A DNA stretch of 64,000 nucleotides from Muribaculaceae bacterium (GTDB taxonomy: Bacteria > Bacteroidota > Bacteroidia > Bacteroidales > Muribaculaceae). The stretch is taken from contig JAFQSX010000032.1 of assembly GCA_017409345.1 (NCBI GenBank), positions 62,001-126,000 of the forward strand. Reading direction: 5' to 3'. Position 1 is the stretch's first letter; each line of letters opens with the position of its first letter. The position numbers and the translations under genes are program-made. Under the pieces are notes generated by a model that worked only from the letters and a program-made list of their open reading frames with translations, did no database searches and was not told the origin of the DNA. This document shows positions 7,628-11,505 of the stretch, piece after piece.

Positions 7628-7635
7628 TACCTTTG
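7628..7635 (+). promoter_or_regulatory. -7 promoter box for the PepC-type peptidase
   Basis: TACCTTTG with a TTTG (7606-7609) 18 nt upstream as a -33 candidate. It lies inside the longer open frame starting at 7633, which supports the later start at 7675. Confidence 0.6.
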
Positions 7636-7674
7636 TATTTAGAATGGAAAAATATAAACAAAAAAATAAATAAG

Positions 7675-8877
7675 ATGAAGAAAGTATTATTGGCAATGCT
7701 TGGCGTTGGGGTAGCAATGAGTGCTATGGCCGATGATAAAGTTGAAAAGAAAGACTCGGTTGAGGGTTTTAAGTTTGAAGATGTGAAAGTGGTGAAAACT
7801 ACATCGGTTAAAGACCAAAATATGTCGGGGACATGTTGGTGCTTTGCCGGAACATCGTTTTTTGAAGATGAAATACTTCGTAAAACCGGAATGGAATTAG
7901 ATTTGTCAGAGATGTTTACCGTGCGTTATTGCTACGAAGAAAAGGCCGACCGCTATTTGCGTATGTATGGCTCAACCGCATTCTCTCCCGGGGGTAGTAT
8001 TCTTGATGTCCCCTTGGTGTGGGAAAAGATTGGCGCAGTGCCCGAGGAGGTATATTCGGGATTGGGATATGGCGAAGAAAAACATAACCACGGCGAGCTT
8101 CATGAAGTGCTCCAAGCCTATATGAAAGGAGTGGAGTCAAATCGTAATCGTCGCATTTCAACTGCATGGCGCAAGGGATTGAATGGAATTCTTGACGCTT
8201 ATCTTGGTGCAGTGCCCGAAACATTCACTTATCAAGGTAAAACATATACTCCACAATCATTCGCTCAATCATTGGGGTTGAATATGGAAGACTATGTAGC
8301 AGTGACATCATTTACACATCACCCATTCTATAAACCATTTGTGCTCGAAGTGGCTGATAATTGGTTCTGGGGATTGTATGAAAATGTTAAGCTCGACGAG
8401 TTGAAGGCTATCGTGGATAATGCTGTTGAAAATGGTTATTCGGTAGTGTGGGCAGCCGATGTGAGCGAAAAAGGCTTTAAATATCGCGAAGGTTATGCAT
8501 TGATGCCAAAGGGTAAAGGTGTGTCATCATTGGAAGGGACCGAACTTTCACGTTGGGTGACATTGAGCGACCAAGACCGAGAAAGAGAGCGTTATAAAAT
8601 CGAAGGTCCTTGCGAAGAAATAGAAGTGACACAAGAGATGCGTCAAGATATGTTTGACCGTCAAGAAACAACCGACGACCATGGTATGGTTATCGTAGGG
8701 GTCGCTAAAGACCAAAAGGGCAACCGCTATTATAAGGTTAAAAACTCATGGGATACAAACCAAGTATATGGCGGATTCTTCTATGTTTCTGAACCATATT
8801 TCCTTGCAAAAACAGTGAGCATTCTTGTAAATAAAGAAGCACTCCCTAAAGATATAGCAAAGAAAATAGGCAAATAA
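7675..8877 (+). CDS. Periplasmic C1B cysteine peptidase (aminopeptidase C / bleomycin hydrolase family)
   Basis: 400 residues from the ATG at 7675; an upstream in-frame start at 7633 would lie within the promoter. Signal peptide at 1-19 (MKKVLLAMLG...SAMA), so unlike cytoplasmic PepC this copy is exported. Catalytic residues of the papain-like C1B family are present: oxyanion Gln48, nucleophile Cys54 in GTCWCFAG, His336 in DDHGMVIVG and Asn357 in VKNSWD. C1B enzymes are aminopeptidases trimming peptides from the N terminus. Bacteroidota commonly have exported members, probably used for peptide foraging. It is followed immediately by a palindromic repeat; no operon partner. Confidence 0.9.
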   Translation: MKKVLLAMLGVGVAMSAMADDKVEKKDSVEGFKFEDVKVVKTTSVKDQNMSGTCWCFAGTSFFEDEILRKTGMELDLSEMFTVRYCYEEKADRYLRMYGSTAFSPGGSILDVPLVWEKIGAVPEEVYSGLGYGEEKHNHGELHEVLQAYMKGVESNRNRRISTAWRKGLNGILDAYLGAVPETFTYQGKTYTPQSFAQSLGLNMEDYVAVTSFTHHPFYKPFVLEVADNWFWGLYENVKLDELKAIVDNAVENGYSVVWAADVSEKGFKYREGYALMPKGKGVSSLEGTELSRWVTLSDQDRERERYKIEGPCEEIEVTQEMRQDMFDRQETTDDHGMVIVGVAKDQKGNRYYKVKNSWDTNQVYGGFFYVSEPYFLAKTVSILVNKEALPKDIAKKIGK

Positions 8878-8886
8878 TGAGCATTG

Positions 8887-8963
8887 GCCCCTCCGGGGCT
8901 ATGCCCCGCCTCCCCTAAGGGCAAGGGAGGACTGCCGGGTTGATGCGCAAAGATGGGATTGAT
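8887..8963. repeat. Palindromic repeat A, upstream copy
   Basis: About 77 bp containing two hairpins: CGGGGC-TAT-GCCCCG (8894-8908) and CCTCCC...GGGAGG (8909-8930), then a conserved tail containing GCCGGGTTGATGCGCAA. It is near-identical to 9494-9570 in the same orientation, with only a handful of differences. It begins 10 nt after the pepC-type stop codon. Confidence 0.85.
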
Positions 8964-9013
8964 ACCTTCAATACTAAAAAGGTCGACTGGCGGTAGGTGA
9001 TAGCATATGCATT

Positions 9014-9054
9014 GCTCCCCTGTCTTAGGGGAGCTGTCGCTTGCGACTGAGGGG
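9014..9054. repeat. Palindromic repeat B (left terminal inverted repeat)
   Basis: Two hairpins, GCTCCCCT-GTCTT-AGGGGAGC (9014-9034) and GTCGC-TT-GCGAC (9036-9047), then GAGGGG. This has the same order of parts as the reverse complement of repeat A (long CTCCCC hairpin, short GC-rich hairpin, GAGGGG), but the short hairpin has different bases with preserved pairing. It therefore forms an inverted pair with the copy at 9494. Confidence 0.8.
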
Positions 9055-9094
9055 TTTGAAGAGAAAAATATGCGATTTTTTTAGAATATAACTT

Positions 9095-9493
9095 ATGGCT
9101 GATTATCAGTTGTCAAATAGAAAGGAGTTGCGAGAAGAACGAAAAGTATTGCGGACTTTTGGCACGGCGGCAGAGGCTGTCTTATGGACGTCTCTAAAGG
9201 CGAGAAGACTTGATGGTTGGCGCTGGAGACGGCAATTCTCAATAGGAAGTTATATACTTGATTTTTATTGTCCGAAAGCTAAACTATGTATTGAACTTGA
9301 TGGTGCATCGCATTTTACTCCCTACGGGTTGGAAGCCGATAGCAATCGTAGCCAGTTCTTGTCGAAATTAGGGATTAGGGTGCTGAGGTTTGAAAATAGA
9401 GTGTTGAAGGAAACTCCGGAGTTAGTAATAGAAACAATTAGAAATGCATTAAATGAGGCGACTTGTGAGAATGTGCATTTTGATGGGGATTGA
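9095..9493 (+). CDS. DUF559 / Vsr-like endonuclease domain protein
   Basis: 132 residues, almost entirely one DUF559 domain of the PD-(D/E)XK nuclease fold. Visible motifs: Glu27 in the first helix (TAAEAVLW), Asp56 in IGSYILDFYCP, Glu67 and Asp69 in CIELDG, His73, and GIRVLRFENRVV-like strand at 93-103. These are the usual metal-binding residues, so the nuclease is probably active. No signal peptide. Such small stand-alone proteins are widespread, with no well established role. Here the gene sits exactly between inverted palindromic repeats, with the stop codon TGA directly followed by the right repeat. This argues that gene and repeats move or are kept together. No other repair or restriction gene is adjacent. 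Confidence 0.85.
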   Translation: MADYQLSNRKELREERKVLRTFGTAAEAVLWTSLKARRLDGWRWRRQFSIGSYILDFYCPKAKLCIELDGASHFTPYGLEADSNRSQFLSKLGIRVLRFENRVLKETPELVIETIRNALNEATCENVHFDGD

Positions 9494-9570
9494 CCCCTCC
9501 GGGGCTATGCCCCACCTCCCCTAAGGGCAGGGGAGGATTGCCGGGTTGATGCGCAAGGATGGTGATTGAT
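9494..9570. repeat. Palindromic repeat A, downstream copy (right terminal inverted repeat)
   Basis: Same 77-bp unit as 8887-8963, beginning on the base after the DUF559 stop codon. The second hairpin is more nearly perfect here (CCTCCCCT...AGGGG-type arms, 9515-9537). The conserved tail to 9570 contains GCCGGGTTGATGCGCAA. Confidence 0.85.
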
Positions 9571-9645
9571 TTCTCTAGAGCATTGTTCTAACTCATTTAA
9601 TGCTAGGGTTGATAGGTATGAGATTATAAATAAAAAATAAAAGTT

Positions 9646-11505
9646 ATGAAACTTAGAAATATTTTGTTGTTGTCGGCGGTAGTGTCGTTGAGTGCAATGG
9701 CGACGAAACCACAAGTAGATGTAGTAAATCCTCCTTATTGGTGGACAGGTATGGCACAAGATACATTGCAAGTGATGGTGCATGGCGAAGGTATTCGTGA
9801 TGCCGAAGTGTCGTTGGCCGATTACCCCGGAGTGCAGTTGGTTGATGTGTCGCGATTGGATAGCCCCAACTATCAATTCCTTTATTTTGTGGTAGGCGAT
9901 GACGCTCAGTCCGGAGAGATGAATCTCACATTCTCGCACGGGAATAAGAAAACAAAGATAAAATATGAACTAAAGGCTCGTGATCGTAAGCCTGAGGAAT
10001 ATGTGGGATTTGATGCGAGCGATGTGTTGTATCTCATCATGCCCGACCGTTTTGCAAATGGAAATCCCGAAAATGACAATGTGGCAACATTGAAAAATAA
10101 AACCGTGGCAGATAGAAGTAATCACAATGGACGCCACGGGGGAGATATTAAGGGGATTCAAGATCATCTCGATTATATTGATTCGCTTGGCGTTACTGCA
10201 ATATGGGTAAATCCGGTGCTAACTAATGATATGCCCGGAGGCGCATATCATGGATATGCTACTACCGATTATTATAATATCGACCCCCGATTTGGCACAA
10301 ATGAGGAGTGGAACACCCTTGTTGAAGAGGCTCACAAACGCGATATAAAAGTGGTGATGGATATGATATTTAACCATTGTGGGAGCGACCACTATTGGTT
10401 TGCTGATCGTCCCTCAAAGGATTGGTTTAACTTCCCCGACGGATATGTGCAAACAAACTATCGATTAACTACGATTCATGACCCTTATGTGAGTGAATAT
10501 GATAAGAAACGCACTACCGATGGTTGGTTTGTTGAGTCGATGCCCGATTTAAATCAAAACAATCCTCATCTGATGAAATATTTGGTGCAAAACTCTATAT
10601 GGTGGATTGAGTCGTCGAAAATTGATGGTATAAGAATGGATACCCACCCATATGCGTTTCTACAACCAATGGCACAATGGATTGATGCTGTGGAAAAGGA
10701 ATATCCTCATTATAATATAGTAGGGGAGTGCTGGTATGGAAATGAAGGTGGTGAAGCATTCTGGCAACGAGGTAGCAAGGTGTGTACCGAAGGCGATTCA
10801 AATCTTCCTACGGTGATGGACTTTGTGTTGTCGCAAACCGCTCGCAAGGCATTTAGTGAACAAACAAATCCATGGACCGGCTTGAATGCAATTTATGACC
10901 ATCTTTCACTCGACTATCTATTCCCTGAGCCTCAAAAAATTCTTACATTCTTGGATAATCATGATACCGACCGCTTTTTGCTTGAACAGCCCGAGGATTT
11001 GGGTTGGTGGAAACAAGCGCAAACATTTTTGCTCACTTCGCGCGGTATCCCTCAAATATATTATGGTACAGAATTGTTGATGAGTGGCTCGAAAGAGGGT
11101 AGCGATGGCTATGTGCGCCGCGATTTCCCCGGTGGATTCCCCGGCGATGAGACAAATGCGTTTACTGCCGAAGGTCGCACCGCTATGCAAAATGATGCAC
11201 ATGCATTTCTTACAAAGGTGCTTAATTGGCGAAAAGGTGAAGCGAATGAGGTGATTGCTAAGGGTTCGTTGAAACACTTTATGCCTCAGAATGGTATATA
11301 TGCTTATACTCGTAAATTTGGCGATAAAGAAATTCATGTGTTGATGAATGGCAATGACGAAGAGTTGACTACAACCATGGAGCGCACTCTCGAAGTAATG
11401 CCTATCGGTGCTGAATATAAAGATGCATTAACGGGAAATAAAGTGAAAATTGAAGAAGAAATGACCTTTGCTCCTCGTGCGATATATATTCTTCAAAACT
11501 TTTAA
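9646..11505 (+). CDS. GH13 alpha-amylase family enzyme, neopullulanase/cyclomaltodextrinase type (SusA-like)
   Basis: 619 residues, about the length of Bacteroides SusA. Signal peptide 1-19, then an N-terminal cyclomaltodextrinase-type beta domain (about 22-115), the GH13 barrel (about 120-530) and a C-terminal beta domain. Catalytic triad: nucleophile Asp332 in GIRMDTHPY, acid/base Glu361 in VGECWYG, and transition-state stabiliser Asp440 in FLDNHDTDR. The conserved DMIFNHCG is also present. The enzyme should cut alpha-1,4 bonds in maltooligosaccharides or cyclodextrins in the periplasm. There are no SusC/SusD genes here, so it is outside a classical starch utilisation locus. The phosphoesterase gene starts 5 nt after its stop, probably the same transcript. 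Confidence 0.92.
   Translation: MKLRNILLLSAVVSLSAMATKPQVDVVNPPYWWTGMAQDTLQVMVHGEGIRDAEVSLADYPGVQLVDVSRLDSPNYQFLYFVVGDDAQSGEMNLTFSHGNKKTKIKYELKARDRKPEEYVGFDASDVLYLIMPDRFANGNPENDNVATLKNKTVADRSNHNGRHGGDIKGIQDHLDYIDSLGVTAIWVNPVLTNDMPGGAYHGYATTDYYNIDPRFGTNEEWNTLVEEAHKRDIKVVMDMIFNHCGSDHYWFADRPSKDWFNFPDGYVQTNYRLTTIHDPYVSEYDKKRTTDGWFVESMPDLNQNNPHLMKYLVQNSIWWIESSKIDGIRMDTHPYAFLQPMAQWIDAVEKEYPHYNIVGECWYGNEGGEAFWQRGSKVCTEGDSNLPTVMDFVLSQTARKAFSEQTNPWTGLNAIYDHLSLDYLFPEPQKILTFLDNHDTDRFLLEQPEDLGWWKQAQTFLLTSRGIPQIYYGTELLMSGSKEGSDGYVRRDFPGGFPGDETNAFTAEGRTAMQNDAHAFLTKVLNWRKGEANEVIAKGSLKHFMPQNGIYAYTRKFGDKEIHVLMNGNDEELTTTMERTLEVMPIGAEYKDALTGNKVKIEEEMTFAPRAIYILQNF

Follow-up and report, generated by a model that had tools for sequence, protein, structure and literature searches.

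In RAYT/REPtron systems (the GTAG superfamily), a single gene lies between inverted, tagged palindromes, and gene-less palindromes are dispersed elsewhere, often in pairs and in some cases inside genes, according to the accessible sections of a 2013 survey (PMC3733652). The same sections tie a dedicated enzyme to GTAG repeats and none to CGTC repeats, and describe in-frame palindromes. Among these are the Rickettsial palindromic elements (RPE), which resemble the copies reported below in lying in frame inside protein genes, although those sections mention no nuclease gene for RPE and assign RPE-4 and RPE-6 to the CGTC type. Homing endonucleases of the EDxHD family (I-Bth0305I; accessible part of PMC3943268) offer a second comparison, and a DUF559 gene was assigned to this family in the accessible text of PMC9403480. 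DUF559 itself has no assigned function, and many REP-like palindromes lack an agreed origin. The open-access literature, as far as its accessible text extends, showed no link between DUF559 and palindromic repeats, and no such report on RAYT/REPIN nucleases, REP-associated Vsr, in-frame inserts in synthetases, Vsr-like homing palindromes or intragenic Bacteroidetes repeats; subscription papers lie outside this coverage, and prior work may exist.

The locus described here, part of the window (the whole stretch of DNA analysed, 64,000 nucleotides), consists of a DUF559 nuclease gene with inverted, tagged hairpin repeats at its borders and is, with a probability of roughly two in three, one copy of a small mobile element. 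What it has in common with RAYT/REPtron is a gene that lies between inverted copies of a palindrome also found dispersed elsewhere. The enzyme is nonetheless a PD-(D/E)XK DUF559 nuclease and not an HUH tyrosine transposase (the window protein had no match to a Y1 transposase in Pfam at E 1e-3), the tags are CCTCACCC- or CCCCTC-like where RAYT repeats carry GTAG, and the DUF559 gene also occurs in frame within host proteins. GTAG or CTAC stood within 12 nt of 7 of the 82 flanking GC hairpins, by estimate no more than chance. With EDxHD homing endonucleases the locus shares a nuclease domain related by sequence profile (3r3p) and a conserved active site, a patchy presence, and apparent horizontal spread into one site of a conserved gene (LeuRS). 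Unlike those enzymes, it has no intron or intein around the gene in the scanned hosts, is bounded by hairpins, and has nuclease-less repeats elsewhere in the genome. Given the lack of a Y1 transposase match and of any excess of GTAG tags, the element is no RAYT/REPtron as defined. We do not place it in the homing family as defined either, and in our judgement its mode of action probably resembles that of a homing endonuclease gene furnished with RAYT/REP-style ends. DUF559 was also considered as the missing enzyme of the CGTC repeats and rejected, as CGTC-tagged palindromes in two core forms lay within 300 bp of none of 160 DUF559 loci. One flank (L057) holds, by eye, a single CGTC-like palindrome with an imperfect tag.

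The nuclease gene and its repeats in the window

A preliminary description of the locus had placed a DUF559 gene between inverted palindromic repeats, and both the PF04480 match of the gene and the alignment of repeat B as an inverted relative of repeat A bear this out (Table 1). The elements follow the order A> B< gene> A>. The two A copies were 91% identical over 80 nt (8877-8956 versus 9483-9562), and A aligned with the reverse complement of B over ~49 nt with a score of 34, which none of 2,000 letter shuffles equalled. Both repeats have a common build, namely a CCCCTC tag, a variable short hairpin and then a CTCCCCTAA..AGGGGAG hairpin. The right-hand repeat, which begins at 9494, does touch the stop codon (TGA, 9491-9493), as had been described. 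The further copy of A, which had been put 530 bp upstream of B, in fact begins ~120-130 bp before B; the figure of 530 bp is the interval separating copy 1 of A from copy 2. Element borders differ from locus to locus, and the 524-bp stretch from B to A is a candidate for the exact unit. The upstream A> and B< (8887-9056) form a REPIN-like pair; in its predicted single-strand fold the outer CCCCTC and GAGGGG ends base-pair with each other and enclose the inner hairpins (z -2.5; 4 of 200 shuffles were equally good). No known RNA family matched positions 8800-9700 at E 0.1.

Table 1. The element and its neighbouring genes, with positions counted from the first letter of the window
Feature	Position	Strand	Evidence or remark
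Papain-like (C1) cysteine peptidase gene, left neighbour	7633..8877	+	PF03051, E 1.4e-21
Repeat A, copy 1	8887..8956	+	CCCCTC tag, then two hairpins; tag faces away from gene; homologous to rc(B)
Repeat B, inverted relative of A	9008..9056	-	Alignment of A with rc(B)
DUF559 PD-(D/E)XK (Vsr/EDxHD-like) nuclease gene, 132 aa	9095..9493	+	PF04480, E 1.8e-29
Repeat A, copy 2	9494..9562	+	Immediately 3' of stop codon of DUF559 gene
Cyclomaltodextrinase-type alpha-amylase gene, right neighbour	9646..11505	+	PF00128, E 7.2e-59

The nuclease belongs to the same protein family as PDB entry 3hrl ("endonuclease-like protein"; single-sequence match at E 2.8e-17), presumably from Neisseria, although that entry is a structure alone, for which the search output names no role or repeats. 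A profile of the window protein and its relatives matched 3hrl at E 7e-29 and then 3r3p ("mobile intron protein", which we take to be I-Bth0305I) at E 6.5e-4, closely trailed by the restriction enzyme PvuRts1I at E 1.6e-3. Across 141 aligned DUF559 domains and proteins, Q47, D56, F57, E67, G70 and D82 were present in all and D69 and H73 in 140, in keeping with the earlier view that the nuclease is intact (Asp56, Glu67, Asp69). A defence-system reading was rejected, its sole support being a weak PADLOC match to DpdF (E 2e-5 over 51 residues), as was a phage origin, with matches in just 3 of 50,697 phage records (E 1e-6) and two weak PHROG matches.

Filled and empty sister sites were located through the amylase gene, which the peptidase gene also adjoins in the empty-site species. 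The peptidase-amylase gap measures 768 bp in the window genome (G000; 2.09 Mb, 75% complete) and in G414, and 699 bp in G418, and holds A, B, DUF559 and A. The site is empty in G422 (amylase 88% identical), where the 121-bp intergenic stretch shows no repeats and, by eye, one terminator-like hairpin, and it is also empty in G415 (amylase 79% identical), where the peptidase stop overlaps the amylase start; relatives with empty sites, which the preliminary description had suggested looking for, therefore exist. Judged by these comparisons, a genome either holds the whole block at this site or lacks all of it, and the change may have run in either direction. A further genome, G417, has an amylase protein 97% identical to that of G000 (as close as that of G414), with a different gene upstream of it and no core of repeat B (genome 80% complete). 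DNA identity between the window gene and its orthologue in G414 is 91.9% (dN 0.052, dS 0.216), and the dN/dS of 0.24 points to purifying selection.

Repeat families and hairpins beside DUF559 genes

Within the host genus, the core of repeat B (≤2 mismatches) occurred in 8 copies in G000, 2 in G414 and 8 in G418 and in none of the other 9 of 12 genomes, i.e., in exactly the three genomes with this nuclease at this site (Fisher, 0.0045); such absences are soft because the genomes of the genus are 63-99% complete. Five of the nine genomes without the B core carry other DUF559 copies. The repeat of the DUF559 gene in G415 (≤3 mismatches) was likewise found in that genome only, in four copies, two of them flanking the gene on either side. 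Altogether the genus holds 10 DUF559 copies in 8 of the 12 genomes, with such repeats beside all ten by eye. One of these is a second DUF559 gene of the window genome (C27, L010/L080), which is 52% identical to the window gene and its sister in the tree; inverted repeats enclose this gene too, alike in build and different in sequence. By eye, A/B-like repeats also appear to lie inside the reading frames of other genes in G000 (L002, 1501-1548; L003, 1501-1547), and at other DUF559 lineages of the genus (L356 in G421, L357 in G420) the B-like repeats vary in their first hairpin (CCCCTCAGTC..GACAGCTCCCC).

Across the phylum, PF04480 was present in 170 of 296 sampled genomes. Flanks were read at 41 standalone copies, comprising 39 genes from 39 genera (open frame ≤220 aa), hand-picked among the matches listed, one per genus and not always the best-scoring copy of that genus, and the two copies of the window's own genome. 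Some otherwise eligible genera near contig ends (G062, G092, G097, G140, G180 and G200) and one containing a stop (G294) were left out. GC-rich hairpins reached 5.6/kb in the first 100 bp upstream and 7.1/kb downstream and dropped to ~0.3/kb beyond 500 bp, out to 10 kb; in 72 of the 82 GC hairpins within 300 bp of DUF559, the 5' arm was pyrimidine. Under a strict definition (arm ≥8, ≥85% pyrimidine), fixed after the first loci had been viewed, 68 hairpins lay within 300 bp of DUF559 (2.77/kb) versus 5 in 81.7 kb of non-ORF sequence of the same loci at distances above 1 kb (0.061/kb). Counting either flank, a strict hairpin stood no farther than 300 bp from 28/41 DUF559 genes (17 on both sides), 0/30 vsr and 0/30 parE genes (Fisher, 4e-10), the controls being 30 loci each among the matches listed, read in equal windows. 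As 14 loci had been viewed before the test (12 and the two own-genome copies), the other 27 serve as a clean test, and 17 of them had a strict hairpin (9 on both sides) and 19 a looser one. Looser GC hairpins occurred within 300 bp, on any side, at 30-32/41 DUF559 loci, depending on the border used, at 0-1/30 Vsr loci and at 4/30 ParE loci. Copies without such ends, which the preliminary description had regarded as contrary evidence, do occur and are a minority: 13/41 lacked a strict hairpin and 11/41 a looser one within 300 bp. One of the 13, the own-genome copy L080, nevertheless has repeats by eye, too irregular for the hairpin criteria and scored as a miss.

A similar distribution was found at 79 named loci retrieved with a Sphingobium DUF559 query, mostly from Alphaproteobacteria, with a few from Verrucomicrobia, Planctomycetes, Nitrosomonas, Dethiobacter and Nomurabacteria. 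Strict hairpins there reached 4.05/kb at 0-100 bp upstream versus 0-0.11/kb more than 200 bp upstream, and were present at 42 loci (both sides at 14). For named plasmids, ten loci were fetched of 33 matched records and flanks were read in nine, with a loose hairpin within 260 bp in 9/9 and a strict one in 7/9. On Sinorhizobium meliloti pSymB, for example, one repeat pair precedes the DUF559 gene and another, partly degraded, follows it. It is very likely that the nuclease and the hairpins travel together.

The tags read at DUF559 flanks were CCCCTC and CCTCACCC-like. A tagged-repeat pattern (CCTCACCCN{1,4}CCCTCTCC; 2 hits in total for the reversed control) occurred in 59 of the 296 genomes, and DUF559 was present in 49/59 of these versus 121/237 of the others (Fisher, 7e-6), including 25 of the 28 genomes with at least three copies. 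The window genome has 0 copies of this pattern, its own repeats carrying the CCCCTC form. At 30 DUF559 loci from the 25 repeat-rich genomes, the exact pattern lay within 400 bp in 13 cases and a strict hairpin was present in 25. No DUF559 was found in the repeat-rich genomes G022 (20 copies), G104 (7) and G001 (6), and none of the 180 copies of the CCTCACCC-tagged repeat in G275 lies beside the only DUF559 gene of that genome (L314); the repeat mover of G275 may have been lost or be a different one. The preliminary description had held that repeats spread genome-wide with no link to DUF559 would count against the unit. This was not the case in the host genus, but the three repeat-rich genomes and the G275 copy of the phylum sample do so count.

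The same exceptions, and the occurrence of repeats far from any DUF559, would be expected if another enzyme acting in trans (e.g., a RAYT or other transposase) moved the hairpins and the DUF559 gene merely rode along. This is unlikely, given that two other small gene families had no strict hairpins at their loci, that each of two DUF559 lineages tested in the genus has a repeat family restricted to the genomes of that nuclease, that DUF559 is more frequent among tag-positive genomes, and that the nuclease is under purifying selection.

In-frame copies inside host proteins and the LeuRS site

At least 41 DUF559 matches, among the matches listed, lie in open frames longer than 350 aa; 40 of the 41 loci were fetched (G131 was left out). 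An open frame of at least 120 aa extended on both sides of the DUF559 domain in 32/40 cases. A GC hairpin stood beside the domain in 33/40 (23 on both sides) and a strict one in 26/40 (13 on both), leaving 7/40 without a loose and 14/40 without a strict hairpin. In many inserts the hairpins are translated; in L111, for instance, peptides such as SPLPLGEDLGEG flank the domain on either side. As with the terminal inverted repeats of insertion sequences and MITEs, several inserts have inverted tags and hairpins at their ends, with the tag outermost (the LeuRS insert of L150 has AAACCTCACCCCC at both ends). No target-site duplication was seen by eye at the insert ends, whose borders are approximate. 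Hosts were identified by Pfam for 12 long-frame proteins, none of which had an intein domain (E 1e-5). In these, DUF559 lies inside or beside LeuRS (at two different sites), the type I enzymes HsdR and HsdM and type ISP enzymes, in MetH between its two B12 domains, in RecG between the helicase lobes, in methylmalonyl-CoA mutase, a UvrD-like helicase and an M23 peptidase, and ahead of HemF.

For LeuRS, we surveyed the best 30 loci (those most like the LeuRS of G202) of 121 genomes in the genus of G202. The loop before FTTRPDT, counted from GKSVGA, was 28 aa long in 9 and 30-46 aa in 14, and held DUF559 in 7 of the 30; some of the 30-46-aa loops hold other repeat peptides. The seven filled sites were dispersed over the LeuRS tree, which requires 7 changes (at least 4 of them forced by well-supported branches), and were no more clustered than shuffled labels (500/500 shuffles were as low). 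In all three pairs with defined values, insert dS was below host dS: 0.42 versus 1.84 for L153/L159, 0.87 versus 2.92 for L151/L152 (host near saturation) and 0.71 versus 1.23 for L159/L177. For L153/L177, insert dS was 1.22 with the host saturated. Together with the patchy tree, these values suggest that the element moved between species into the same LeuRS site, or travelled with a piece of LeuRS. Insert dN/dS in this comparison was 0.07-0.14, and by this measure the nuclease is under purifying selection.

In a tree of 81 DUF559 domains, based on a short alignment and with many forks open, inserts grouped mainly by site across families (MetH, HsdR, RecG and HemF). Such clustering could be explained by homing or by old vertical descent, and inheritance may have been vertical in part. 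The HsdR insert L144 stands apart from the other four HsdR inserts, and a few inserts fall within the clade of another site, such as the UvrD-type insert L127 within the LeuRS clade and the M23-peptidase insert L138 within the MetH clade, which suggests jumps to new sites; the window gene and L080, sisters in one genome, are listed with these. On sequence comparison, the package of nuclease and hairpins is thus one that recurs in several phyla, sits in frame inside host genes and appears to have moved between species into one LeuRS site.

The LeuRS loop between GKSVGA and FTTRPDT looks like a tolerant insertion hot spot for several repeat families. Among L155-L180, in some species without DUF559, the same loop carries IASETKQS (which reads as a CGTC-type repeat) or SQKSKVESEQ.

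A proposed break-and-copy route and the other explanations

We read the element as transposase-less and homing-like, with nuclease-less ends that would have been dispersed as REP-like repeats. In this scheme the nuclease would nick or cut DNA at the target or at the folded repeat ends, and repair of the break would copy the element in, as in homing, with occasional jumps to new sites. Gene-less repeat pairs, such as A>..<B at 8887-9056 in the window, would then be nuclease-less derivatives spread by a resident nuclease, by analogy with RAYT/REPIN, and in-frame copies may be tolerated by host genes because the whole insert is translated. That the nuclease drives spread by such a break-and-copy route is, in our estimate, probable. 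The preliminary proposal that nuclease and repeats form one unit, spreading in a RAYT/REP- or homing-like manner, gains support from the filled and empty sister sites, the nuclease-matched repeat families in the genus, the controlled flanking enrichment, the in-frame insertions and the putative movement into the LeuRS site.

Alternatively, the hairpins could simply be fragile or recombinogenic, with host recombination shuffling whatever lies between them and the nuclease uninvolved. The lack of a visible target duplication and the unrelated repeat peptides in the LeuRS loop agree with this, as does a study of Legionella evolution (PMC12308824), in whose accessible text the hot spots of mutation and recombination include segments carrying a transposase and a DUF559 gene. 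Passive recombination would, however, leave unexplained why DUF559 is the one flanked family of the three tested and why nuclease lineage matches repeat family, and we hold it to be improbable. Very unlikely is a role as a Vsr-like mismatch nuclease for cytosine-methylation repair beside ordinary terminators or regulators: such repair was proposed for VsrA of Caulobacter, a DUF559 protein linked with a solitary cytosine methylase (accessible part of PMC12907096), but Vsr genes of the same phylum lacked strict hairpins (0/30), DUF559 presence is patchy, and the terminator reading was rejected because the hairpins are inverted on both sides at many loci, tagged and located inside reading frames.

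If the homing-like reading is true, a nuclease paired with its own hairpin family would supply the mover for one more set of repeats and account for odd in-frame inserts in synthetases, helicases and restriction enzymes. It would also be a new compact homing-like enzyme, with targets legible from naturally occurring pairs of filled and empty sites. The wider proposition is an even call: that standalone DUF559 genes in many phyla are autonomous copies of a separate class of transposase-less, hairpin-ended, homing-like elements, able to sit in frame within essential proteins, and that a third large REP-like superfamily (pyrimidine/purine hairpins, CCTCACCC-like tags) beside GTAG and CGTC arose from them.

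Some individual copies deserve separate mention. On the Pseudanabaena galeata plasmid pPg_02 (L186), DUF559 lies within a very large annotated gene, two genes past brxC, and is thus near a BREX-type defence gene. Two planctomycete copies (L249 and L261), in frames of ~420 aa, appear by eye to be fused to a hydroxymethylglutaryl-CoA-lyase-like enzyme. The LeuRS insert of L166 is shortened, with no hairpin ends visible, and looks like an element decaying in place with its frame still open.
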